A stretch of DNA of 64,000 nucleotides from a bacterium (GTDB taxonomy: Bacteria > Bacteroidota > Ignavibacteria > Kapaibacteriales > UBA2268): the NCBI GenBank assembly GCA_030431515.1, contig JAUIIX010000003.1, positions 1 through 64,000 on the forward strand. The letters run 5' to 3'. The stretch's first letter is position 1; the number at the start of each line of letters is the position of its first letter. Positions 12,414-44,026 of the stretch are shown here, piece after piece. Both the position numbers and the translations under genes were made by a program. The notes under the pieces are model-generated. The model did not search any database. It saw only the letters and a list, made by a program, of their open reading frames with translations, and was not told the origin of the DNA.

Positions 12414-12457
12414 AAAACTACATTCCATGTGAATCCATTATTGCACTATGTAGTTTT
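12414..12457 (+). terminator. Hairpin after the recJ-folD-rluD operon
   Basis: A perfect 10-bp inverted repeat, AAAACTACAT (12414-12423) and ATGTAGTTTT (12448-12457), encloses a 24-nt loop. It lies 17 nt past the operon's last stop. The T run is short, so termination efficiency is uncertain. Confidence 0.5.
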
Positions 12458-12514: not shown

Positions 12515-12691
12515 TCAATTGCTTATAGACATTTTTATTTCTTTAAATAGAAGGTCAATTTCATTGAACTTGTTAGATGAATCTATCCACAAAAGTTCAT
12601 CCTCTATTTGTATATCAAATCCACCAAAATCATAAGCATATTTGCTATTTTCTTGCATTTTTGGCAATTCTTCATTTACTATAGCTTCCAT
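12515..12691 (-). CDS. Small protein of unknown function (58 residues)
   Basis: An acidic 58-residue frame, MEAIVNEELPKMQENSKYAY.. with a DFGGFDIQIEDELLWID segment. A GGAAT ribosome-binding site overlaps the stop region of the preceding gene 20 bp away. I do not recognise a family. It is the third gene of a leftward operon of small proteins behind a sigma-28-like promoter, so a role in late flagellar assembly or in regulation is possible but inferred only from that promoter. Confidence 0.55.
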   Translation of the reverse strand: MEAIVNEELPKMQENSKYAYDFGGFDIQIEDELLWIDSSNKFNEIDLLFKEIKMSISN

Positions 12692-12710
12692 ACTAAGTTA
12701 TTCCTTTTTT

Positions 12711-13121
12711 TTAATAAATAATATTATCAATAATTTGTTTCTTATTGCTTTTAATTTGCTCGTTTTTAATATCATACAAAGAGAATACATCATATTTAAA
12801 CTTATTATTTTTTAATTTCTTAGGTGAATCTTCCTGATTTTCTAATTTCATTTTTTCTAAAGATTGCTTGGCATTGTTATTTAATTCGCTATTTTTGCTT
12901 CTTGCTTTAGCGATTGCCAATTCTTTTAATAAATTAGTATAATTACTTCTTTCCTGGTTTAGTTTAGCAGTGTATTCATCTTGTCCTTTTTCCTCTGGTG
13001 TAAATGATGCAATACCAACTTTAATATCTCGGATTACAATCTTCGATTGATTGATTTTCCTGAGTATTTCCTTCTCAGATAGTTTGTAATTATTCTTATA
13101 TGTATTCCCTTTTATTAGCAT
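12711..13121 (-). CDS. Small Lys-rich helical protein of unknown function (136 residues)
   Basis: A charged, Lys/Asn-rich protein predicted by eye to be mostly helical (SEKEILRKINQSKIVIRDIK, then NQERSNYTNLLKELAIAKAR). It has no signal peptide or membrane segment. Its ATG overlaps the stop of the upstream gene by one base (TAATG), a sign of coupled translation. No family recognised. The size and helical character would fit a FliT/FlgN/FliJ-like chaperone, but no signature supports one. Confidence 0.65.
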   Translation of the reverse strand: MLIKGNTYKNNYKLSEKEILRKINQSKIVIRDIKVGIASFTPEEKGQDEYTAKLNQERSNYTNLLKELAIAKARSKNSELNNNAKQSLEKMKLENQEDSPKKLKNNKFKYDVFSLYDIKNEQIKSNKKQIIDNIIY

Positions 13122-13384
13122 TAGGAAGCCAATTTACGATCTACTCTTTTTCTAAAATCTTTAATTTTGTACAAAATTTCTAAAGCAAGTTCACTTTCTT
13201 CAACTATTCTTTCTTCAAATTTTCTTTTTAATTTGTCATTATTCTTAATAGTTGACATTGCATCTTTCAGCTTTACAATTGTACTTTTAGCTTTTGAAAG
13301 TCTATTTTCTAAAGCATTGATCCTATCGATATCAATTTCTCTCATATTTGTCTCGAAATTGTAATCATTATTTAAGTTTAACAT
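13121..13384 (-). CDS. Small coiled-coil protein of unknown function (87 residues)
   Basis: A helical, charged protein (IDRINALENRLSKAKSTIVK..) with heptad-like hydrophobic spacing and no Cys, signal peptide or membrane segment. An ATG four codons upstream (13396) would make GGAGG part of the coding sequence. The second ATG has that GGAGG exactly 5 nt upstream, so I chose it. It is the first gene of a three-gene operon behind a sigma-28-like promoter at 13437-13463, which suggests expression with late flagellar genes. Confidence 0.65.
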   Translation of the reverse strand: MLNLNNDYNFETNMREIDIDRINALENRLSKAKSTIVKLKDAMSTIKNNDKLKRKFEERIVEESELALEILYKIKDFRKRVDRKLAS

Positions 13385-13436
13385 TTTATCCTCCATGAAT
13401 ACTGTTAATTTGTAAAATTTCCCTCTCTACTAACAA

Positions 13437-13463
13437 TTATCGGAGCAAATCAAAAAAAGTTAA
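13437..13463 (-). promoter_or_regulatory. Sigma-28 (FliA)-like promoter
   Basis: On the minus strand the sequence reads TTAA-N15-TCCGATAA. It matches the flagellar sigma-28 consensus TAAA-N15-GCCGATAA at 3 of 4 and 7 of 8 positions with exact spacing. The predicted transcript start is near 13430, about 45 nt before the first gene. Confidence 0.6.
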
Positions 13464-13779
13464 TAGGTAAATTTACTTAAAATGCGATAAATTCCTTGTT
13501 TTAGCTAGTAATACCTACATTTTTTCCTTGACAAAAAATGAATAAATCTTAATAATATATTGTAAACTATTTAATTATCTAAAGATTTTAATATTGAAAG
13601 AAGAAAATATATCTAAAAGTTTCTGATTCTAATTAAATCTATTATATAAAAAGTAATTATAAGAGCTTAATCAAATATAATATATATGTTTATTTAATTT
13701 ATGAAAAAATATTTATTATTTAAAAAATATTTGTATTTTGCATTTGTAAAAAAGAAAATTTAAAAATTAAGGAATAAAA
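13464..13779. other. AT-rich intergenic stretch before terC
   Basis: No gene or clear structured RNA seen. In particular, nothing resembles the GC-rich yybP-ykoY manganese riboswitch that often precedes terC-type genes. Confidence 0.6.
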
Positions 13780-20035: not shown

Positions 20036-20441
20036 GCATTTCTGAGTAAATACTACATATCTTCAAAAAAATAAACCTCGTATCTTCAAAAACAGATTAC
20101 AAATAAATTAAAATAAAGAACTTGATAAATACCAAGCTCCTCTATAAATTTGTATATTTTCACTAAACACAACACGAACCAAAAAAACTGGACACTTTTT
20201 TAATCATTATTTTCTTCAAATCCTCCAATTCGGATAGGATTTATGTGGGCTTATATTATTTATTAAATAAACTTAAAACACCCTAAAAAGCAAATACGAC
20301 AAAATAATGTAAATAATCAAATCATATTTATAATTATTTTGCAATATAAATAAAACAAAATTCAAAAAACTATATAATAATATAGTTAGTTTTATTGAAA
20401 ATAATTTTAAATTGCATTTAATATAATTGAATTTTGGAAAA
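20036..20441. other. AT-rich intergenic stretch with one dispersed repeat
   Basis: No gene seen. It carries a copy of the AT-rich repeat (20075-20128: CTCGTATCTTCAAAAA.. AAATTAAAATAAAGAACTTG) that also occurs at 7572-7630 and 16026-16087. The phrase AACTGGACACTTTTT (about 20189) resembles some insertion-sequence ends, but no partner end or transposase was found. Confidence 0.55.
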
Positions 20442-21344
20442 ATGATGTCAAAAGAATTAATATTATCACAAAGTATAGTTGAAGAAAAAATTATATACAT
20501 CCGAGGAAATTATGTAATGTTGGATAGTGTGTTGGCTGAATTATATCATACAGAAACAAAGTATATTAATAGAGCAACTAATAGGAATCCAGATAGATTC
20601 CCTCAAAATTTTATGTTTCAATTAACAAATGAAGAATGGGAAAAGTTGAAGTTCCAATCTGGCACATCAAAAAAACATGGTGGTAGAAGAACATTGCCTT
20701 ATGTATTTACAGAACAGGGTGTTGCAATGCTTTCTTCTGTTTTGCAGACACCCGTTGCAGTTAAAGTTAGTATTCAAATTATTAATGCTTTTGTAGAAAT
20801 GAGGAAATTAATTGCTAGCAATTATGGACTGTTACAAAGAATGGAATATGTAGAAAAGAAACAAATTGATTATGACAATAAATTTGAAAAAATTTTTAAA
20901 ACAATAGAAAATAAAGAATTAATTCCAAATCAAGGTATATTTTTCGAAGGTCAAGTTTTCGATGCTTATGAATTTATTTCTAAAATTATTCGCTCTGCAA
21001 AAATATCTATAAAGTTAATTGATAATTTTGTAGATGAAAAAACTCTAACTCATTTATCTAAAAAGAGAAAAAATATATCTGTAACTATCTTAACTAAAAA
21101 TATAGATAGTAAACTAAAATTGGATTTAGAAAAAGTTAATAAACAATATGGTGGTTTTGAAATTAAATTTTTTTCAAAAAGCCATGATAGGTTTATAATT
21201 ATTGACGATATAGAAATCTTACATTTAGGTGCATCTCTTAAAGATTTAGGTAATAAATGGTTTGCATTTTCAAAGTTAGATATCAAATCAGTTGAAAGTT
21301 TATTGAATTCTATAAAACAAAAATCAAAAAACTACATAAAATAG
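20442..21344 (+). CDS. ORF6N-domain protein with a PLD-like C-terminal domain
   Basis: The N-terminal ORF6N domain (about 1-115) is a DNA-binding module best known from phage antirepressor-like proteins (YIRGNYVMLDSVLAELYH, the NPDRFPQNFMFQLT segment, VFTEQGVAMLSSVL). A helical linker follows. The C-terminal domain (about 165-295) resembles the phospholipase-D/nuclease fold: SAKISIKLIDNFVDEKTLTH, then SHDRFIIIDD and HLGASLKDLG. The single HD motif replaces a full HKD. I chose the ATG at 20442 over a TTG at 20427 because GGA lies just upstream. It precedes mcrB by 74 bp on the same strand and may belong to the same defence locus. Confidence 0.8.
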   Translation: MMSKELILSQSIVEEKIIYIRGNYVMLDSVLAELYHTETKYINRATNRNPDRFPQNFMFQLTNEEWEKLKFQSGTSKKHGGRRTLPYVFTEQGVAMLSSVLQTPVAVKVSIQIINAFVEMRKLIASNYGLLQRMEYVEKKQIDYDNKFEKIFKTIENKELIPNQGIFFEGQVFDAYEFISKIIRSAKISIKLIDNFVDEKTLTHLSKKRKNISVTILTKNIDSKLKLDLEKVNKQYGGFEIKFFSKSHDRFIIIDDIEILHLGASLKDLGNKWFAFSKLDIKSVESLLNSIKQKSKNYIK

Positions 21345-21418
21345 TAGCGAGGATTTATAATAATTTACTTTAAATTGCAGAAAATAAAAAAACAAAATAG
21401 TAATTAAGGGGTTAAAAT

Positions 21419-24040
21419 ATGAGTTTTACATGGATAAAAGTACATGAAGCTATAGTTGAATATTTAAAAGATAAACAAAATAGTCAATTAGAATTAATAA
21501 ATATCCTGAATGAATCTGGTGTTGATGTTAATACAGATGTTGATGAGAATGAAAATGAAGTAAATTTAACAGAAATAGACCCATTTTCATTTTTTGCTCA
21601 AATCTATAAAAACAAAAAAAGAAGAGAAGCAATTCTTAATAATTTAGCTAATAAATTGAATATTGGTTTAACTGCATCAGATACTAATGGATTACCTCAT
21701 TTTTCAGATAGAAGAAAAGATTGTAGCGTACTTCTATTTCCTTTTAAAAAAGATAGGACAAATGAAATTGAAGAGTTATGGACCGCATTTGGTAAATTTA
21801 TAAATAAGAATGTGGATAAGAATGAAAAAGTAAAGATATTTGAAGAATTAATATCTAAATATGAAATCGGATGGTTTAAATTAACTACTTGTTTGTACTA
21901 TATTTTACCAAACGAATTTGTTCCTTTAGACTCTAATACTTTAAAATATCTTAAAAGTAATAATCTTATGGAAAAGCGAATCACTAATTCATTAGATTAT
22001 TTTAATTTGATAGATAAGCTTAAAAAACAAGAGATAAAATTATATAAAATACCTTATTTGGCAATTAGTAACATTATAATTAATGAAACAAATTATTTTT
22101 CAAAACGACTTTCTGATTATAATCAAGAAGATTTAGATAATTATTTTAGTTTTTTGAAAGGAATAATAACTCATTTTAAAATAAACAAAAATGATAAAAG
22201 AATTTATTTAAACTATTATGACAAAAACGAAAAAATCACAAGGTTGATCTTTGTTATTGGACAAAGATATTGCTGGATTCTTGATAAAAAATTGAATTAT
22301 GGAGCTATTTCTAAAAATAGATTTGGTGACTCAGTTGAAGATTTCGAAATAACAAATGATAAACTTAAAACTCCTGTATATTTAAATTATTATAAAGATT
22401 ATAATAAAACTATTCAAAACAAAACTCCAATTTTTGAAGCGTTAGAAAATGAATTAAAATCTACAACAAAATCTAGTCATAGAAAATACCATAAACAAGA
22501 TTTAGAAGATTATATATTTGATGTTATTTTTAATAAAGAATTTAATAGGATAGAACAAAATAAAATGGAAGAAAACAATAGCATTAATGCATTTAACTGC
22601 CCTGACTTCTCAAAAAATCAAATCCTATACGGACCTCCTGGTACTGGGAAAACATATAATACTGTTAGGTTAGCAGTTCAAATTCTTGATTGTTTGAAGG
22701 ATTTACCAGATTATAATGCTGATACAATCAACAAATATAATCAATATAAAAAAGAAGGTAGATTATCTTTTATTACTTTTCATCAGAATTTCTCTTATGA
22801 AGATTTTATTCAGGGCTTAAGACCTAATTTGAATAATGATTCTATGAGTTTTAAAAACAAAGATGGTATATTTTTAAAAATGTGTGTTAATGCAAAATTT
22901 GAATATTATTTAGAATCAAAGAAAAAAGAAAACACAAATCCTGTTAAAGATGAAAATGAAATTTATATAAAATTTATTCAGAGTTTGAAAATCGGAGATA
23001 TTTTTAAATCTTCAACAAATTCTGAAATAGAATTAATAAAAATAAATGAAAATAATAATTTAGTATTTAAACATGTTAATGGTTCAAGAGAATATATAAT
23101 TTCTCCTCAAAGGTTATTAAAACTATTCAAAAGATACCCGAACATAGATGAAATTAAAAGTATTCATACAGAGATAATTGAAACAATAGGGGGAATAAAC
23201 ACAACGATTGCATGGATTGCCTTAAATGAATTTATAAAATTTTACAATAAATATGAAATTGAAATTGGTGATGAAGAAGAAGTTGATAATGATATAAAAT
23301 ATCCATACGAGATAAAAAAAGAAATTATTAGAACAGTAAACAATGATGAATTGAATGTTGAAAATACATACAAAATAAAACCCTACGTCATCATCATAGA
23401 CGAAATAAACAGAGCAAATATATCTCGTGTATTTGGTGAGTTGATTACTTTAATCGAAGAAGATAAACGATGGAATGGTGACCCTGAGAAAGTTAATTGG
23501 CAAGTTACTTTACCAAGTGGTGACCCATTTGTTATTCCAGATAATCTTTATATTATAGGAACTATGAATACTGCTGATAAATCTATTGCCTTGCTTGATG
23601 TTGCTCTGCGAAGAAGGTTTACTTTTAAGGCGATGTATCCTTTATATGAGATAGATGGTGTTAAATACTTGTATTCTGATTATCTCAAAAAATTGAATAG
23701 TTTAATAGTAGAAAAACTTGGTGCTGGAAGAGGACATGATTTGCAGATTGGTCATTCTTATTTTATGGAAATTAGTAATAATCAAGAATTTATTGATTCT
23801 ATGAATAATAAAGTAATTCCGCTTCTTATGGAATATTTGATGAATGATTTAGTAGAAGTTATTAAATTAGTTAATACTTCTCTAAAAGGTGAACAATATT
23901 GTTTAAAAACTTCTGAAAATAAAAAATTAAATGATACTAAATTATATGATAATATAAAAGAATTAGATTATATCTACCCATTAGAAATAGTATTGTGTAA
24001 TACTCTTAGCATTTCAAATGATGAAAGTGAGGAAAAATAA
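21419..24040 (+). CDS. mcrB: McrB-like AAA+ GTPase of a type IV restriction system
   Basis: Motor and recognition subunit that, with McrC, cuts modified DNA. The N-terminal ~390 residues are unlike E. coli McrB and probably set target recognition. The AAA+ core has GPPGTGKT at 405-412, Walker B IIIDEINRANISRVFGE with Asp 661, and TMNTADKSIALLDVALRRRF from 715. The MNxxD signature is specific for McrB GTPases. About 150 residues separate Walker A from Walker B beyond the usual distance, so there is an insertion (about 490-640). An AGGGG ribosome-binding site precedes the ATG. mcrC follows after 16 bp. Confidence 0.92.
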   Translation: MSFTWIKVHEAIVEYLKDKQNSQLELINILNESGVDVNTDVDENENEVNLTEIDPFSFFAQIYKNKKRREAILNNLANKLNIGLTASDTNGLPHFSDRRKDCSVLLFPFKKDRTNEIEELWTAFGKFINKNVDKNEKVKIFEELISKYEIGWFKLTTCLYYILPNEFVPLDSNTLKYLKSNNLMEKRITNSLDYFNLIDKLKKQEIKLYKIPYLAISNIIINETNYFSKRLSDYNQEDLDNYFSFLKGIITHFKINKNDKRIYLNYYDKNEKITRLIFVIGQRYCWILDKKLNYGAISKNRFGDSVEDFEITNDKLKTPVYLNYYKDYNKTIQNKTPIFEALENELKSTTKSSHRKYHKQDLEDYIFDVIFNKEFNRIEQNKMEENNSINAFNCPDFSKNQILYGPPGTGKTYNTVRLAVQILDCLKDLPDYNADTINKYNQYKKEGRLSFITFHQNFSYEDFIQGLRPNLNNDSMSFKNKDGIFLKMCVNAKFEYYLESKKKENTNPVKDENEIYIKFIQSLKIGDIFKSSTNSEIELIKINENNNLVFKHVNGSREYIISPQRLLKLFKRYPNIDEIKSIHTEIIETIGGINTTIAWIALNEFIKFYNKYEIEIGDEEEVDNDIKYPYEIKKEIIRTVNNDELNVENTYKIKPYVIIIDEINRANISRVFGELITLIEEDKRWNGDPEKVNWQVTLPSGDPFVIPDNLYIIGTMNTADKSIALLDVALRRRFTFKAMYPLYEIDGVKYLYSDYLKKLNSLIVEKLGAGRGHDLQIGHSYFMEISNNQEFIDSMNNKVIPLLMEYLMNDLVEVIKLVNTSLKGEQYCLKTSENKKLNDTKLYDNIKELDYIYPLEIVLCNTLSISNDESEEK

Positions 24041-24056
24041 TTAAAAATAATTAAAA

Positions 24057-25466
24057 ATGAAAGATAAGGTTTCAAAATCAACAGATATAAACGAAATAAA
24101 TTTATCTGAATATCAAACTACTGATAAGTTAAAAAATGATAATTATAATAATTACATTAATGATTTAGAAATATTCCTTGATGATATTTGGAAGAGAAGG
24201 GATAAGAATGATTCATTTTATACGAATAATGATGAGCCAGATACGAGTTCTCAAAGGATTTTATCTTTATTAAGACATAATAAAATCAAACAAAATAATT
24301 ATGTTGGGGTTATTAATTTTCAAGGTAAAACTTTTAATTTATTACCAAAGATTTTTAAAGATGATGTAAGTAATTTAAATGATTCTACGGAAGATGGAAA
24401 AATATTAGAAAATATAAATTTGAACATTTTGTGGTGGCTGACATATACTACAAAAATTAAATTCCCTAAGAATATTACGAGCATAAGTAAGTTTGAAAAG
24501 CATTCTTTTTTGGAAGTAATGATTTGGTTATTTGCTATATATACAAAAGAAACTTTGACTAATAATTTATATCAAAATTATGTAGATATAGAAAGTGAAA
24601 CAACTTACGTGAAAGGTCAGTTCATGTTTAACGAGTATATAAATAACTACCTTGCACGTGCGAAATGGGATAAAGTATATTGCCGCTACGATTCTTTTGA
24701 GTTGGATAATAATTTCAATAGAATAATAAAGCATGTGTCGATATTGTTGATGAATTTCACTGAAAACAACGAAACAAAACGCTATTTACAGGATATAATT
24801 TTTATTCTAAGCGAAGTTCAAGATGTGCGATGTACTGTAGAAGATTGTAATAAAGTACGGATAAATCATTTTCAGAATGAATTTGAAACGATATTAGAGT
24901 ATTGCAAGTTATTTTTATCTAATTCAATATCAGTTAATTACAGAAATAAGTTAGAATTATTTGCTTTTTTAATTCCAATGGAAAAACTATTTGAAGATTT
25001 TGTATTTGGCTTTATTAAAAAGGAATTGAAAGATAATTTAAAAATAAAATCCCAAGTGTCTGGAAAAAATTTAACTGAGGAAAATGGTTATTTATTAAAA
25101 CCAGATTTAAAAATAACTTATGAGGGTATAGATTATTTAGCAGATACCAAATATAAGATAATAAATTATGAGAATAAAAAGTTAAGCCAATCAGATTTGT
25201 ATCAGATGGTAGCGTATGCGATTCGATATGAGTGTGAGAATATAATTTTATTTTATCCTGAAACAGATGAAGAAATTGAAAGCAAACATTTAAAAATTGT
25301 TGATGAGTTTTCTAATAAGACAATTAATATATTTCCTCATTGTTTGCCTATAAAGTTTGATTTAGAAGTGGAATTTAAAGATAATATCGAAAAGTTAAAA
25401 TGTAAGTTAAAGAAGCAGATTAATAATATATTTGAAAAGTTTGGTGAAGAAAAACAGAAGAAATAA
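24057..25466 (+). CDS. mcrC: McrC-like nuclease subunit of a type IV restriction system
   Basis: Partner of McrB that supplies the endonuclease. The N-terminal part (about 1-250) carries the McrC-family region, including SFLEVMIWLFAIYTKETLTN and YVKGQF. The C-terminal PD-(D/E)xK nuclease core is KPDLKI (Asp 350), then LADTKYK (Asp 363, Lys 365), with a YQMVAYAIRYECENIILFYP helix-strand pair after it. The 469-residue length is somewhat above E. coli McrC. The gene ends within 3 bp of a bidirectional terminator shared with mscL. Confidence 0.9.
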   Translation: MKDKVSKSTDINEINLSEYQTTDKLKNDNYNNYINDLEIFLDDIWKRRDKNDSFYTNNDEPDTSSQRILSLLRHNKIKQNNYVGVINFQGKTFNLLPKIFKDDVSNLNDSTEDGKILENINLNILWWLTYTTKIKFPKNITSISKFEKHSFLEVMIWLFAIYTKETLTNNLYQNYVDIESETTYVKGQFMFNEYINNYLARAKWDKVYCRYDSFELDNNFNRIIKHVSILLMNFTENNETKRYLQDIIFILSEVQDVRCTVEDCNKVRINHFQNEFETILEYCKLFLSNSISVNYRNKLELFAFLIPMEKLFEDFVFGFIKKELKDNLKIKSQVSGKNLTEENGYLLKPDLKITYEGIDYLADTKYKIINYENKKLSQSDLYQMVAYAIRYECENIILFYPETDEEIESKHLKIVDEFSNKTINIFPHCLPIKFDLEVEFKDNIEKLKCKLKKQINNIFEKFGEEKQKK

Positions 25467-28151: not shown

Positions 28152-28961
28152 TTGTCCGACCAAAAGTTTGTTCCTAAGTTTAATGTTAATGATTATATCG
28201 GAAATAGGAGAATTTCTTATATACCAGAATATCAGGATTTTAATCAAAAAGACTATTCTGCTTATGGAAGAACTTTATGGGAAAATAACACTAAACCAGA
28301 GCGAACTTCGTTCTTATCCAAAGAAAAGGATGATGAATCGCAACTCGGGGATTTTGGGGTTCGGAAATACGACGACCTAACGGGCAGGTTCACTGCGATT
28401 GACCCGCTATGGGAAAAGTTTTATGGCTGGTCGCCGTATATGTATTCGGCGAATAATCCTGTGAATGCGGTTGATTTGGATGGTCGGGTAGTTTTCAATG
28501 CGGCTAATCCATTAGGTGCAACACAAATTAATCAAGCATTTGATGAGCTTATAAAATCACCTACAGGTTTTAGATTATTAAATGATGCATTCGACTCTAA
28601 ATTTGCAATAGTTTTTTTAATGGTTGAACAAGAAGAATTTGATAATAAAGTTGGTGTAGATAATGCAAACACAGAATATATAACTAAAATTGGAGGAGAT
28701 TCAAATGATCCGAAAGATGCTCTTCTTAAAGTAAATATAAATAAAACAACATGGGAAAATAAAACTGTTACCGAACGAGCAGAAACTATAGGACATGAAT
28801 TAGAACATGTAAGACAATTTTTAGATTCTGATAACAAAAATAACTTTAAAGGTTCAAATCAAGAATCGTATGAAAAATATAGAGATGATCCTCTTGAATA
28901 TCAAGGTTTTGATTGTCAATATCAAATTCGTAAAGAAATAAAAGATTGGAAAGAAAAATGA
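28152..28961 (+). CDS. Orphan RHS-tip protein with an HExxH toxin-like C-terminus
   Basis: A short RHS protein that keeps only the last RHS segment. Residues about 12-40 resemble the YxDxLGNxR..YYPFG block, and about 60-112 form the RHS core (LGDFGVRKYDDLTGRFTAID, then YMYSANNPVNAVDLDG). The C-terminal ~155 residues are the variable toxin position and carry a metallopeptidase-like ETIGHELEHV motif (His 215, Glu 216, His 219). There is no signal peptide. It starts at TTG with GGAGAGG 7 nt upstream, so it is translated as a separate short gene. Full RHS proteins are far longer, so it is an orphan tip. The 3' end overlaps the next gene by ATGA. Confidence 0.75.
   Translation: MSDQKFVPKFNVNDYIGNRRISYIPEYQDFNQKDYSAYGRTLWENNTKPERTSFLSKEKDDESQLGDFGVRKYDDLTGRFTAIDPLWEKFYGWSPYMYSANNPVNAVDLDGRVVFNAANPLGATQINQAFDELIKSPTGFRLLNDAFDSKFAIVFLMVEQEEFDNKVGVDNANTEYITKIGGDSNDPKDALLKVNINKTTWENKTVTERAETIGHELEHVRQFLDSDNKNNFKGSNQESYEKYRDDPLEYQGFDCQYQIRKEIKDWKEK
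28317..28450 (+). repeat. RHS-core repeat, copy A (intact, inside the orphan RHS gene)
   Basis: This 134-bp block encodes SKEKDDESQLGDFGVRKYDD through PYMYSA. It recurs at 30486-30619 with five mismatches and in part at 31306-31424. It is visibly richer in G and C than the flanking DNA. Confidence 0.9.
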
Positions 28962-29662
28962 ATTTAATGATATTTCTTGTATTATTGTTGATAAATAATT
29001 TTAATATTTATTCAGATGAATTCGAACTTTCAGATGAAGAACTTGAAATAGTTTATAAAAAAGTTTCTTCAGTACTTATGTATCAATATTACTTAGACCA
29101 TAGTTTAGATGATGGGTTTATTTATATTAAATCAAAAAAAAATAAAGATGTTTATATAGATTATTTTAAAAATATAAATTCATGTCTTGAAAATGTAACA
29201 ATAAATGAATATTATGAAACAACAAAAATTCATAGTTTTAATAATAATTTTATAATCTACAATATTTTACCAAAATATGGATCGCAGAAAATTGTAGGAT
29301 TTATAGATAATTCAATAAGATTTATAATAGATAGAAATGGACGGATATATTTTTTAAAAGGTAGTAAAAAGAATAATAGCATATTTGATTCTTATGAGGA
29401 CATTAAACATATTTTAAAAAGTGAAAATTTGATTTTAAATGCTTATTACTATTTACTTTTAAATACAAATGTTAATATATTATTAGAATTAGATAAAGCT
29501 AAAATATTTAAAAAGAATGAAATTGAATTAAGTAAACATATTGTTGATAATAATTATGAAGAAAAAACATCAAAAATAAAATTTCAGTTAGAAGATATTT
29601 ATATATACGTTTATTTAAAAGATGGAAAATTTAGTCACGTAATAAATAGCAATACTAAATAA
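28958..29662 (+). CDS. Putative secreted immunity protein for the RHS toxin
   Basis: A 234-residue protein with a Sec signal peptide (MNLMIFLVLLLINNFNIYS) and no further membrane segment, so probably periplasmic. Its ATG overlaps the RHS gene's stop (ATGA), the usual arrangement for a toxin and its immunity gene. No family recognised; it is rich in Asn, Tyr, Ile and Lys and very AT-rich. Immunity function is inferred only from position, coupling and size. If correct, the export signal suggests that the toxin acts outside the cytoplasm. Confidence 0.55.
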   Translation: MNLMIFLVLLLINNFNIYSDEFELSDEELEIVYKKVSSVLMYQYYLDHSLDDGFIYIKSKKNKDVYIDYFKNINSCLENVTINEYYETTKIHSFNNNFIIYNILPKYGSQKIVGFIDNSIRFIIDRNGRIYFLKGSKKNNSIFDSYEDIKHILKSENLILNAYYYLLLNTNVNILLELDKAKIFKKNEIELSKHIVDNNYEEKTSKIKFQLEDIYIYVYLKDGKFSHVINSNTK

Positions 29663-36155: not shown

Positions 36156-37157
36156 CTACCAATCTATTTGTGTATGTGGTAGCCAAGATTTAATTTTAGC
36201 TCTCTCTGTTTCTGAAATCTGATTATCTCTTAACTTAAGAATTTCAAGCGTATTTTTAAGATTTTTAATTGATTCAGGTAGACTAGTTAATTTATTCCCT
36301 CGTAGATCAAGCACTTTTAATTTATATAGCTGTTCAAAGCTCTCAGGTAGGTTAGATATTCTATTATCAATGATTTCAAACCTCTCTAAATTAATCAAAT
36401 TACCAAAGTTTTCAGGTAAACTAGATATTTTATTATAAGAAAGAATAAGATATTTTAAATTATTCAGATTACCAAAGCTTTCCGGTAGGCTAGATAAGTT
36501 GTTATTAACAAGATCAATGCTATTTAAATTAATCAAATTACCAAAGCTTTCAGGAAGGCTCTCTAATTTGTTGTCACTAAGACTAAGCAATTCCAAATTA
36601 TTCATATTTCCGAAGGAATTAGGTAAACTAGACAGTTTGTTACCAAAAAGAAGAAGATCTCTTAAATTATTCAGATTACCTATTTTTTCAGGCAAACTAG
36701 TTAATTGGTTATTAAAAACAGAAAGTGTTTCTAAATTAATCAGTTTAACTATGCTTTCTGGTAGGTCAGTTAAATTATTTGCGGCAAGATGAAGACTTTT
36801 TAATTTAGATAGATTATCAAAGACGTTTGGCAAGCTAGTAAATAGATTATCATTAAGTACTAGCTCTTCTAAATTAATCAGCTTACCTATGCCTTCCGGC
36901 AAGCTAGTTAAATCATTACTTTTTAGAAGAAGAAATTCTAAATTATCTAGATTCTCAATACAACTTGGGATTTCAGATAAACCTTTTTCAGCTAAATTTA
37001 CAGTAAGACGATTTTCAACTAAGGGCAGATTATTATTGTCATAAGTTTTACCAACAATTTCACAATTTGAATTACCAGATACATTTTCATCTTCATTTTT
37101 ACAAGAGTTTATTGCAATGAGCAATAGTGAGATTAATACAATTTTAAAGTTTTTCAT
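36156..37157 (-). CDS. Leucine-rich-repeat lipoprotein (333 residues)
   Basis: A lipoprotein signal peptide with lipobox LIAINSC (Cys 19) is followed by a short linker and eleven 23-residue leucine-rich repeats (about 55-310) of the LxxLPxSFGNLxNLxxLxLxxN type. It closes with a cap-like ERAKIKSWLPHTQIDW. Such proteins usually sit at the cell surface and bind protein or glycan partners. It is a paralogue of the next gene upstream: the signal peptide, the GKTYDNNNLP segment and the C-terminal cap are nearly the same. Probably expressed separately from, or together with, its paralogue 45 bp away. Confidence 0.85.
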   Translation of the reverse strand: MKNFKIVLISLLLIAINSCKNEDENVSGNSNCEIVGKTYDNNNLPLVENRLTVNLAEKGLSEIPSCIENLDNLEFLLLKSNDLTSLPEGIGKLINLEELVLNDNLFTSLPNVFDNLSKLKSLHLAANNLTDLPESIVKLINLETLSVFNNQLTSLPEKIGNLNNLRDLLLFGNKLSSLPNSFGNMNNLELLSLSDNKLESLPESFGNLINLNSIDLVNNNLSSLPESFGNLNNLKYLILSYNKISSLPENFGNLINLERFEIIDNRISNLPESFEQLYKLKVLDLRGNKLTSLPESIKNLKNTLEILKLRDNQISETERAKIKSWLPHTQIDW

Positions 37158-37202
37158 AATATTTGAATTTATGTGAAAAATTTATATAACTAGTTTAACT
37201 AA

Positions 37203-39617
37203 TTACTCCCAATCTATATTCGTATTTGGTAGCCAAGATTCAATTTTAGCTCTTTCAGCTTCTGGAATCGGGTTACCCCTTAAATCTAGTGATTTAAGCA
37301 CATTTTTTAGATTTTTAATTGATTCTGGCAGGCTTGTTAATTGGTTATTACGAAAACTAAGTTCTTTTAAATTATTTAGACTACCGAAACTTTCTGGCAG
37401 CTTAGTTAATTGATTTCCATCAAGATTAAGATTTACTATACTATTCAGATTAGCGAAGCTTTCGGGTAGCTTAGTTAATTGGTTTTCGCTAAGAAAAAGC
37501 TGTTTTAAATTATTCAGATTGCTGAAGTTTTCCGGCAGACTAGTTAATTGGTTTCTAGAAAGAGTAAGCCTTTCTAAATTATTCAGATTGCCAAAGCTCT
37601 CCGGCAGGCTTTTTAACTCATTACTATAAACATCAAGAAATTTTAAATTAATCAGATTACCAAAGCTTTCTGGCAGATTAGTTAATTGGTTTTCGTTAAG
37701 ATAAAGATGTTTTAAATTATTCAGATTACCAATACTTTCAAGTAGACTAGTTAATTGGTTTTCGTTAAGATTAAGTACTTCTAAATTTTTAAGATTGCCG
37801 AAGCTTTCTGGCAGATTAGTTAATTGGTTTTCGTTAAGATAAAGATGTTTTAAATTATTCAGATTGCCGAAACTTTCTGATAAACTAGTTAAATAATTAC
37901 TATGTATACTCAGCTCTTCTAAATTATTTAGATTATGGAAGTTTTCTGGCAAGGTAGTAAGTCCGTTCTGAGAAAGAGAAAGATGTTTTAAATTATTAAG
38001 ATTGCCGAAGCTTTCTGGCAGGGTATCTAATGCGTTAGCATTAAGCCGTAGCTCTTCTAAGTTATTAAGATTGCCAAAGCTTTCTGGTAAGCTTTTTAAT
38101 TGATTCCAAGTAATATTAATCACTTCTAACTTATTTAGGTTTTCGATACAACTTGGTATTTTAGTTAATCCACCATAATCTGGTATATATAGAGTAAAAC
38201 GATCATCTTTTATAGGCAGATTATTGTTATCATAGGTTTTACCATTAATTTCGCAAGTCCAGTCATTTTCTTTATATATAACTTGAGTTGATATACCTGC
38301 TCTATCTATTTGAATTGTTCCTTCTTCTGGTATGTCGTTTGGAACCATAAATTCAATCAAATTATTTTGCCAAGTAATTGTATTTATCTCATCATCATTT
38401 AAAAGCAATTTATATCCTTGTTTTTTATCTATGCCAAAATAATTCCCTTTAATTTTAGCTACTTTACCCATCATAATATATAATGTATCGTTTGAAATAA
38501 TAGGAGGCATAACGTTATCTAAACTCACATCAATATTGATTTCACCAATATCATTTAATTGACTTCCAGATGTCGTGAAATCAATTGTGTTAGAACCATA
38601 GATATCAAATTGTGCCTCAATTACTACATCTAAATTTTCTAATGTGAACATTTCAAATGTACCATCTTCAAGTGATTTAGTAGAAAGTTCAAAAGCTCTA
38701 TTTTTAGCAGTTTGAACTAAATTAGCTCCTTCAATTGGATTCCCTAAATTATCTACAACTTTACCTATGATTTTTGCTCTTAACTCAATTGGTATATCCC
38801 AATTCCAAGGAGTAAAATGATTAACAGTTGCAGTATAGATACCATTTGCATAGCTTCCAGACCCTTCTTCAATCCATTGACCTTTTTTAAAATCATAGTA
38901 CCACATAGGAATGGTAGATGGTGAATTGTTAGGAGCTTTGATTTGTATTTTAGCTTTTACTCCATCAGCTAATTGAACAGGTTCTCCCTTTTCATCTATA
39001 ATATCTACATCAATAAATCCAAAAGACTCTATCGCTGTTTCAGAGCCATCTTCTCTTGTGCCTCTAAATTCACCTGGGAAAGCACCAATAAAATAATCTT
39101 CGCTAATTAGAAATGGAGTAACTGAAACTGTTACCTCACCTTTAACAATTTCTCCATCTGAATAAACAAATCCACCTGGCTCTATCTCAACAGAAAAATC
39201 ATCTCCTTCAATTTTACCACCTTCGTCTGTTAATTTAGCAGTTTTTTCAATATTGAATAATGTTGCATCAACTCTATTTGGTAGTTCTTCGCTAACATTA
39301 ATTAACTTTTGAGTTCTGGCGTATCCATCTTTTTCAAACCAAATTCTTTTTTTCAAACCCTTAGAAACTTGGGTTAGCTCAAACTTTCCTTCTCCATTAG
39401 TAATGCTGATATGCTCACCAAAATAAACACGAACATCACTAAGTGGGTTGCCAGCTTTATCTTTAGCAAATCCTACTACTCTTCCTTGACCATAGTCTTC
39501 TTTTATGGTTTCTGGAGTATATTTACGATTATTGTCAATTAAGACATCATCTTCATTTTTACAAGAGTTTATTGCAATGAGCAATAGGGAGATTAATACA
39601 ATTTTAATTATTTTCAT
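37203..39617 (-). CDS. Large leucine-rich-repeat lipoprotein with carboxypeptidase-regulatory-like domains
   Basis: Lipobox LIAINSC (Cys 19). The domains in order are: a carboxypeptidase-regulatory-like beta domain (about 48-115, VVGFAKDKAGNPLSDVRVYF); a ZU5/CILP-like region (about 125-275); a second regulatory-like domain (about 282-365); an IPT/TIG-like strand region (about 370-450); then thirteen 23-residue leucine-rich repeats (about 475-775) and a C-terminal cap. It is surface-exposed by inference and may bind a partner. Repeats 5-6 and 7-8 contain a 65-bp identical DNA stretch (37663-37727 and 37801-37865), evidence of recent expansion. It is a paralogue of the downstream 333-residue gene. 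Confidence 0.85.
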   Translation of the reverse strand: MKIIKIVLISLLLIAINSCKNEDDVLIDNNRKYTPETIKEDYGQGRVVGFAKDKAGNPLSDVRVYFGEHISITNGEGKFELTQVSKGLKKRIWFEKDGYARTQKLINVSEELPNRVDATLFNIEKTAKLTDEGGKIEGDDFSVEIEPGGFVYSDGEIVKGEVTVSVTPFLISEDYFIGAFPGEFRGTREDGSETAIESFGFIDVDIIDEKGEPVQLADGVKAKIQIKAPNNSPSTIPMWYYDFKKGQWIEEGSGSYANGIYTATVNHFTPWNWDIPIELRAKIIGKVVDNLGNPIEGANLVQTAKNRAFELSTKSLEDGTFEMFTLENLDVVIEAQFDIYGSNTIDFTTSGSQLNDIGEINIDVSLDNVMPPIISNDTLYIMMGKVAKIKGNYFGIDKKQGYKLLLNDDEINTITWQNNLIEFMVPNDIPEEGTIQIDRAGISTQVIYKENDWTCEINGKTYDNNNLPIKDDRFTLYIPDYGGLTKIPSCIENLNKLEVINITWNQLKSLPESFGNLNNLEELRLNANALDTLPESFGNLNNLKHLSLSQNGLTTLPENFHNLNNLEELSIHSNYLTSLSESFGNLNNLKHLYLNENQLTNLPESFGNLKNLEVLNLNENQLTSLLESIGNLNNLKHLYLNENQLTNLPESFGNLINLKFLDVYSNELKSLPESFGNLNNLERLTLSRNQLTSLPENFSNLNNLKQLFLSENQLTKLPESFANLNSIVNLNLDGNQLTKLPESFGSLNNLKELSFRNNQLTSLPESIKNLKNVLKSLDLRGNPIPEAERAKIESWLPNTNIDWE

Positions 39618-43172: not shown

Positions 43173-43610
43173 ATGATTAAGCAATTTTTAGATATTTTAG
43201 AAAGAGAAGAAATAATACTAAGTCAATTAGTGTTAGTTACTGAGTATCAAAATAGAGCTTTGATTGAATATAAAACTTCAAATGTTCCTGATATTATTAG
43301 TAAACAAGATTTACTTTTAAGTCAATTATCAAAAATTGAAAATGAAAGAATAAATCTATTTATGAATATATTTAAAATAACAAGAAGCGAAGCAGTTAAT
43401 TTAAAACTATCTATGATTGAAAATAAATTAAAAGGTGACAATGCTTTAGCTGTTAAGCATTTAAGAACGACAATTGCTAAATTAAATAATAAATTAATTC
43501 AATTGAATAATGAAAATAAAATATTAGCAAATAGAGGAAAACAAAGTATTAATAATATTATAAGAACATTAAATCAAAATAATAATGCTGTATTTAATGT
43601 AAAAATTTAA
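43173..43610 (+). CDS. flgN: FlgN-like chaperone for hook-associated proteins
   Basis: A 145-residue helical protein with the FlgN pattern: an N-terminal LDILEREEIILSQLVLVTEY, a middle KQDLLLSQLSKIENERINLF, and a helical, Asn/Lys-rich C-terminal half. FlgN binds the C-termini of FlgK and FlgL before export, and both lie just downstream. The family's sequence conservation is low, so the call relies on the helical pattern and on position. An AGGT ribosome-binding site lies 6 nt upstream. Confidence 0.75.
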   Translation: MIKQFLDILEREEIILSQLVLVTEYQNRALIEYKTSNVPDIISKQDLLLSQLSKIENERINLFMNIFKITRSEAVNLKLSMIENKLKGDNALAVKHLRTTIAKLNNKLIQLNNENKILANRGKQSINNIIRTLNQNNNAVFNVKI

Positions 43611-43699: not shown

Positions 43700-44026
43700 A
43701 TGGAAAACAATAGTTTAGATATCATCGCTAATGAATTAGCAAAAGAAATCATCCAATATTCAGTGCATTTACCTGATGATGATATTCTTCAAATCAAGAA
43801 AAAACTAAATGTCTATGCACGCTTAGTTCCTTCTTCAATTAGAACATTCACACAAAAGAAAACTAGAATTGAAAAAATGAAATCTTTAATCGAAGCAAGT
43901 TCTAACTTGTCAGATTGCAAAGAATTTTTGGATATTTCTAATAGACTTAGATATGGAAATGTAGATTTAATTAAAGAAAAAATTGATTCTTTAGACTCGC
44001 ATCTTTCTAAAAATGTATTCTTTTAA
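43700..44026 (+). CDS. Flagellar-operon protein of unknown function (108 residues)
   Basis: A helical, slightly basic protein (IIANELAKEIIQYSVHLPDD.., TFTQKKTRIEKMKSLIEASS). It has no signal peptide or membrane segment and its single Cys is not in a motif. I do not recognise a family. It sits between flgN and flgK, the place where flgM often lies, but it lacks a clear FlgM anti-sigma signature. AGGG lies 7 nt before the ATG. A role as an export chaperone or regulator is possible and is inferred only from position. Confidence 0.65.
   Translation: MENNSLDIIANELAKEIIQYSVHLPDDDILQIKKKLNVYARLVPSSIRTFTQKKTRIEKMKSLIEASSNLSDCKEFLDISNRLRYGNVDLIKEKIDSLDSHLSKNVFF

Follow-up and report, generated by a model that had tools for sequence, protein, structure and literature searches.

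A three-gene operon behind a conserved FliA (sigma-28)-type promoter candidate in a flagellated Kapaibacteriales genome

The late flagellar operons read with FliA (sigma-28), of the flagellin, motAB and fliDST type, are the closest described systems to the operon analysed here. It lies in the window, by which we mean the whole 64-kb stretch of DNA under study, on contig 19 of the 3.55-Mb genome (G000) of an apparently uncultured bacterium. Like those operons, it has a promoter architecture of the TAAA-N15-GCCGATAA type and sits in a flagellated genome that encodes FliA, whereas its products have no known family, are confined to one genus and are unlinked to flagellar genes. A second comparison is with the export chaperones FlgN, FliT and FliS, which share with the operon proteins small size, a mostly helical and predicted cytoplasmic character and a late promoter; unlike them, the operon proteins gave no sequence match, and the models of the first two gave no fold match. 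The third product, orf3, resembles the anti-sigma-28 factor FlgM in being short, in its C-terminal helix-like stretch and in its late-type promoter, but has no Pfam FlgM match at any reported level and lacks the DKVELSSEA-like motif that the probable FlgM of the flagellin operon carries.

Flagellar and chemotaxis genes have been reported from a Kapabacteria genome (PMC7509429), and a literature search found no paper on the FliA regulon of Kapabacteria, a flagellated Bacteroidota lineage. We read the locus as a class III (late) flagellar operon of genus-specific accessory, chaperone- or adaptor-like proteins with an acidic partner, and give this reading a probability of about 0.5.

Promoter and sigma-28 context

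The three reading frames of 87, 136 and 58 residues described in an earlier note on this DNA were confirmed (Table 1). For orf1 we prefer the start at ATG 13384, because GGAGG lies 5 nt before it. The orf2 start overlaps the orf1 stop (TAATG), and a 19-nt gap separates orf2 from orf3. Beyond orf3, a long-stem inverted repeat stands between the convergent ends of orf3 and a pseudouridylate synthase-like gene, and is a possible two-way terminator.

Table 1. Coordinates of the operon, its control elements and related palindromes (window positions unless a locus is named)
Feature	Position	Strand	Description
orf1	13121-13396	-	87 aa from ATG 13384; 91 aa from upstream ATG 13396
orf2	12711-13121	-	136 aa; hairpin and low-confidence tail; missing in one sister species
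orf3	12515-12691	-	58 aa; acidic, with a helix-like C terminus conserved as IDxIFKEIKxS
Putative FliA (sigma-28)-type promoter, TTAA-N15-TCCGATAA	13437..13463	-	Motif match, cross-species alignment, shuffles
Palindrome copy 1, TAAGTA-AATT-TACCTA (minus strand)	13464..13479		Directly abuts -35 element
Palindrome copy 2, TAGGTA-TTAC-TAGCTA (minus strand)	13502..13517
Inverted repeat, AAACTACAT...ATGTAGTTT	12414..12457		Long stem, read in the sequence; loop too long for terminator scan
Palindrome, flagellar locus L094	near 11140		motA locus
Palindrome, flagellar locus L095	near 4872		fliL locus
Palindrome, flagellar locus L096	near 6570		Flagellin locus

In full, the candidate promoter reads TTAA-CTTTTTTTGATTTGC-TCCGATAA and agrees with TAAA-N15-GCCGATAA at 10 of 12 positions with a spacer of exactly 15, as the earlier note had recorded; the site does lie just before the operon, at 52 nt from box end to ATG 13384 instead of the claimed 45 or so. 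The exact motif occurs once in the window, and 8 of 100 shuffled windows contained at least one copy, so that the motif by itself is weak evidence for a promoter. A looser FliA motif showed no enrichment genome-wide, with 29 matches, many of them inside genes, against 24 in a reversed control; with counts barely above the control, it was rejected as a stand-alone marker of flagellar genes. Given this lack of enrichment, our promoter call, from scanning that covered selected genome stretches, rests on conservation and context.

Conservation is evident in the two sister species analysed, whose orf1 leaders carry TAAA-N15-TACGATAA (L031/L100) and TCAA-N15-GACGATAA (L032/L101) at the same alignment position as the window's site. 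Both score 10/12, and the orf1 start follows at 41 and 55 nt, respectively. When leaders were shuffled with dinucleotides preserved, a qualifying site (at least 10/12, N15, within 120 nt upstream) appeared in 1.0% of window leaders and in 0.6% and 1.5% of those of the two sister species. Qualifying sites never arose jointly in all three (0/5000), a figure that is not a strict probability because the leaders have common ancestry. The sequence between the two boxes has diverged among the species while the boxes themselves are kept, and exact copies of the extended motif TACCTAT-N-AA-N17-CGATAA number just four in 54 genomes, three of them at the orf1 promoters and the fourth within an unrelated reading frame. 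This cross-species comparison makes the case for the predicted promoter convincing. The motif could be a chance match ahead of a real operon transcribed by a housekeeping or other sigma factor, and the unenriched loose motif and the 10/12 score, weaker than the 11/12 found at flagellin and motA, fit that possibility; against it stand the equal spacing and position of 10/12 sites in three species, the joint shuffles and the diverged sequence between the boxes, and we regard it as highly improbable.

The genomic context points the same way. FliA is encoded in the window genome (G000:C16:22403-23077; E 6.1e-60, passing the TIGR02479 cut-off) and in both sister species (E 1e-60 in G002 and 8e-61 in G001), and all three genus members have flagellin genes. 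Sites of 11/12, with the same N15 spacing as at orf1, precede a flagellin gene in all three genomes (L093, L096, L099), which in G000 and G002 heads an operon of fliS, fliD and small genes; in G000 they also precede motA (L094; motAB) and fliL (L095). The earlier note's expectation that the motif would recur before flagellin and mot genes was thus borne out. The remaining flagellin genes of the three genomes lack the FliA motif, and a TTGGCAC-like sequence at those of G000 and G001 may mark sigma-54 promoters. Because the promoter is conserved, stronger sites stand at flagellin, motAB and fliL, and FliA and flagellins are encoded, sigma-28 control is likely; counting every reading other than chance, we consider it very probable that the operon is under FliA control, and we infer that FliA itself would transcribe it.

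The three products and the known flagellar proteins

None of the three proteins matched a Pfam or NCBIfam model above cut-off, in agreement with the earlier note's statement that they belong to no recognised family. PHROGs, solved-structure sequences, Rfam, and plasmid and phage records likewise returned nothing usable, with no match to the operon proteins in the plasmid and phage records. The families appear to be undescribed so far. Read from their sequences, the proteins have no obvious signal peptide or membrane segment and look cytoplasmic.

The AlphaFold model of orf1 is an antiparallel hairpin of two helices (mean pLDDT 84, core above 90), and that of orf2 (mean pLDDT 70) combines a hairpin with a tail predicted at low confidence. 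Fold searches of orf1 against PDB and viral models, and of orf2 against PDB, gave nothing at E<=0.001 and only generic helical hairpins and coiled coils. When the orf1 and orf2 profiles were compared, the hairpins aligned across 63 columns with a score of 21.2 (E 0.005), against a maximum of 18.2 in 200 column shuffles; reversed profiles reached only 9.6-10.6. None of the other helix-rich, charged proteins from this genome that were compared with the orf1 profile scored above 14.9, whereas orf2 as a single sequence scored 16.5 there. These comparisons suggest that orf2 is probably a diverged duplicate (paralog) of orf1, a kinship that is only suggestive since E is just 0.005; the helical hairpin is a generic shape, and shared composition can produce a profile match of this kind.

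In every species carrying them, orf1 (net charge +3 to +11, depending on the species) and orf2 (+10 to +13) are basic, whereas orf3 (-8 to -11) is acidic. In orf3, conservation is concentrated at the C terminus, where I-D-x-(I/L)-F-x-E-I-K reads like an amphipathic helix. The opposite charges are suggestive of, though no proof for, binding of orf3 to the orf1 and orf2 hairpins.

Short flagellar chaperones are fast-evolving, and within the genus orf1 identity is just 31-37%. The operon could accordingly hold duplicates of FlgN, FliT, FliS or FlgM altered beyond recognition, a reading that size, helical content and promoter class would fit. These roles, however, are covered elsewhere in the genome: flgN lies in the window (43173-43610, Pfam E 2e-11), and the flagellin operon carries FliS (E 9e-13), FlaG (E 1e-11), a FliT-like gene called by position and a probable FlgM with a sub-threshold Pfam match of 16 bits. 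Against the Pfam and NCBIfam models of FlgN, FliT, FliS and FlgM, the three operon proteins gave no match up to E 10; the orf1 profile found no outstanding match among the genome's helical proteins except orf2; and the FliT-, FliS- or FlgM-like folds that the earlier note had proposed looking for did not emerge from the orf1 and orf2 models. The products are probably not hidden versions of known flagellar proteins, and we judge the diverged-duplicate explanation unlikely. Between flgN and flgK (43700-44026), the window also encodes a four-helix protein of the 23S-rRNA-intervening-sequence type (sub-threshold PF05635, E 1.8e-5).

Distribution and membership of the late regulon

Searched as a single sequence against 60 relatives, orf1 was found only in two genomes of the same genus. 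One of these (G002) keeps orf1-orf2-orf3 and the other (G001) keeps orf1-orf3; in both, the operon occupies a different chromosomal place from that in the window genome, with gene order kept. It adjoins a thioredoxin-domain (DUF255/YyaL-type) gene in both sister species, and 28 other loci at such a gene showed no small-gene operon of the orf1 type. Profiles for orf1 and orf3, built from three sequences and run against 54 family genomes, detected the genes in 3 of the 54, all members of one genus; a fourth orf1 match was marginal (E 5.7e-4) and lay inside an 896-codon open frame. Short orf1 patterns searched against 84,980 species genomes recovered only the two known relatives. With identity of 31-37% even within the genus, remote orthologs could be missed.

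Strong FliA matches (E below 1e-50) were present in 44 of the 54 family genomes and absent from 10. At least 41 other FliA-positive family genomes thus have no copy detectable with the orf1 and orf3 profiles, and so the operon genes are not general flagellar parts. The earlier note's proposal of new late flagellar parts is partly supported: the late-type promoter stands, and the products are candidate flagellar parts. Its suggestion that the operon would occur only in flagellated relatives agrees with flagellin and FliA in all three carriers, a comparison of little power as all three are one genus; its observation that the operon is remote from the flagellar operons holds. Neither of the two outcomes that the note would have taken as a refutation was observed.

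FliA control need not imply a flagellar role, because FliA-like sites in the window genome also precede genes for secreted, non-flagellar proteins. Sites scoring 12/12, each preceded by TACGTA, stand before a gene for a fibre-like protein (G000:C19:129947-129973, L007) and one for a Kelch-like protein (G000:C22:3552-3578, L008), both perhaps non-flagellar members of the regulon. The operon may thus serve attachment, surface sensing or another lifestyle switch co-expressed with flagella, and its restriction to one genus and distance from flagellar genes would be consistent with this. Set against this are the cytoplasmic appearance of the products, which makes a surface function not obvious, and the candidate status of the L007 and L008 sites themselves; we hold this explanation to be less probable than a flagellar role, if still a serious one.

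A role in the flagellum is plausible and, in our assessment, somewhat favoured; counting against it, no flagellar protein matched the products by homology or the orf1 and orf2 models by fold, and orf2 is absent from one sister species. Under the class III reading, RNA polymerase with FliA would read the operon once the hook-basal body is complete, as it would flagellin and motAB, FliA being freed after export of its anti-sigma factor. The basic helical hairpins of orf1 and its probable duplicate orf2 would then serve as small cytoplasmic chaperone- or adaptor-like proteins, which acidic orf3 would bind, as partner or client, by way of its conserved C-terminal helix. This chaperone and partner mechanism is a guess.

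Translations of other parts of the window point to an ORF6N/KilA-N-like gene followed by McrB (GTPase)- and McrC-like genes of type IV restriction (20427-25466), and to a C-terminal fragment of the Rhs-core type that contains an HExxH region like that of metallopeptidases (28152-29662), after which a small gene could encode an immunity partner. Two adjoining lipoprotein-like genes (36156-39617) carry many leucine-rich repeats of the 'SLPESFGNLNNL' type.

A shared palindrome and a possible second layer of control

A 16-bp palindrome with the consensus TAGGTA-N4-TACCTA abuts the orf1 -35 box in all three species, exact in both sister species and with one mismatch in the window. Allowing up to one mismatch, the three genomes hold 12 sites, of which 6 fall at FliA-type promoters. 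Four of these belong to orf1, the motA promoter has one shortly past its -10 box, and the last precedes a flagellin gene of G002. At fliL a copy with two mismatches closely follows the -10 box, and in other genera exact copies stand before a flagellin gene (L124) and between flgB and flgC (L120). Across the family the palindrome is not enriched (11 exact sites, where the reversed control gave about 15), so its case rests on the positions of the sites; that it is a putative regulator-binding site common to late flagellar promoters is plausible, not established. Three species of another genus (L121-L123; G070, G071, G072) also keep an exact copy in one intergenic region, ahead of a gene for a secreted protein.

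The flagellin leaders of the three genus members (L093:9280-9420, L096:6580-6720, L099:2285-2425) and that of L124, from one other genus, share GGCAGGAYGCC, a hairpin with AGGA in its loop, and, at the ribosome site, ACAYGGAGG, an arrangement like the classic CsrA site pair. Of the 54 family genomes, 47 encode CsrA, that of the window among them, and CATGGAGGAT, common to the orf1 leaders, is a possible single CsrA-like site.

A bolder reading, in which the operon would be an undescribed late flagellar module of duplicated hairpin chaperones and an acidic partner under both FliA and a regulator binding TAGGTA-N4-TACCTA, is doubtful. As a type the operon is ordinary, a set of small genes peculiar to one lineage and placed under late flagellar control. 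Late flagellar regulons are nonetheless a good route to new flagellar accessory genes from the promoter alone, and the palindrome common to the promoters points to a second layer of control. Should the operon prove to be flagellar, it would show fast turnover of the flagellum's accessory layer within a genus.
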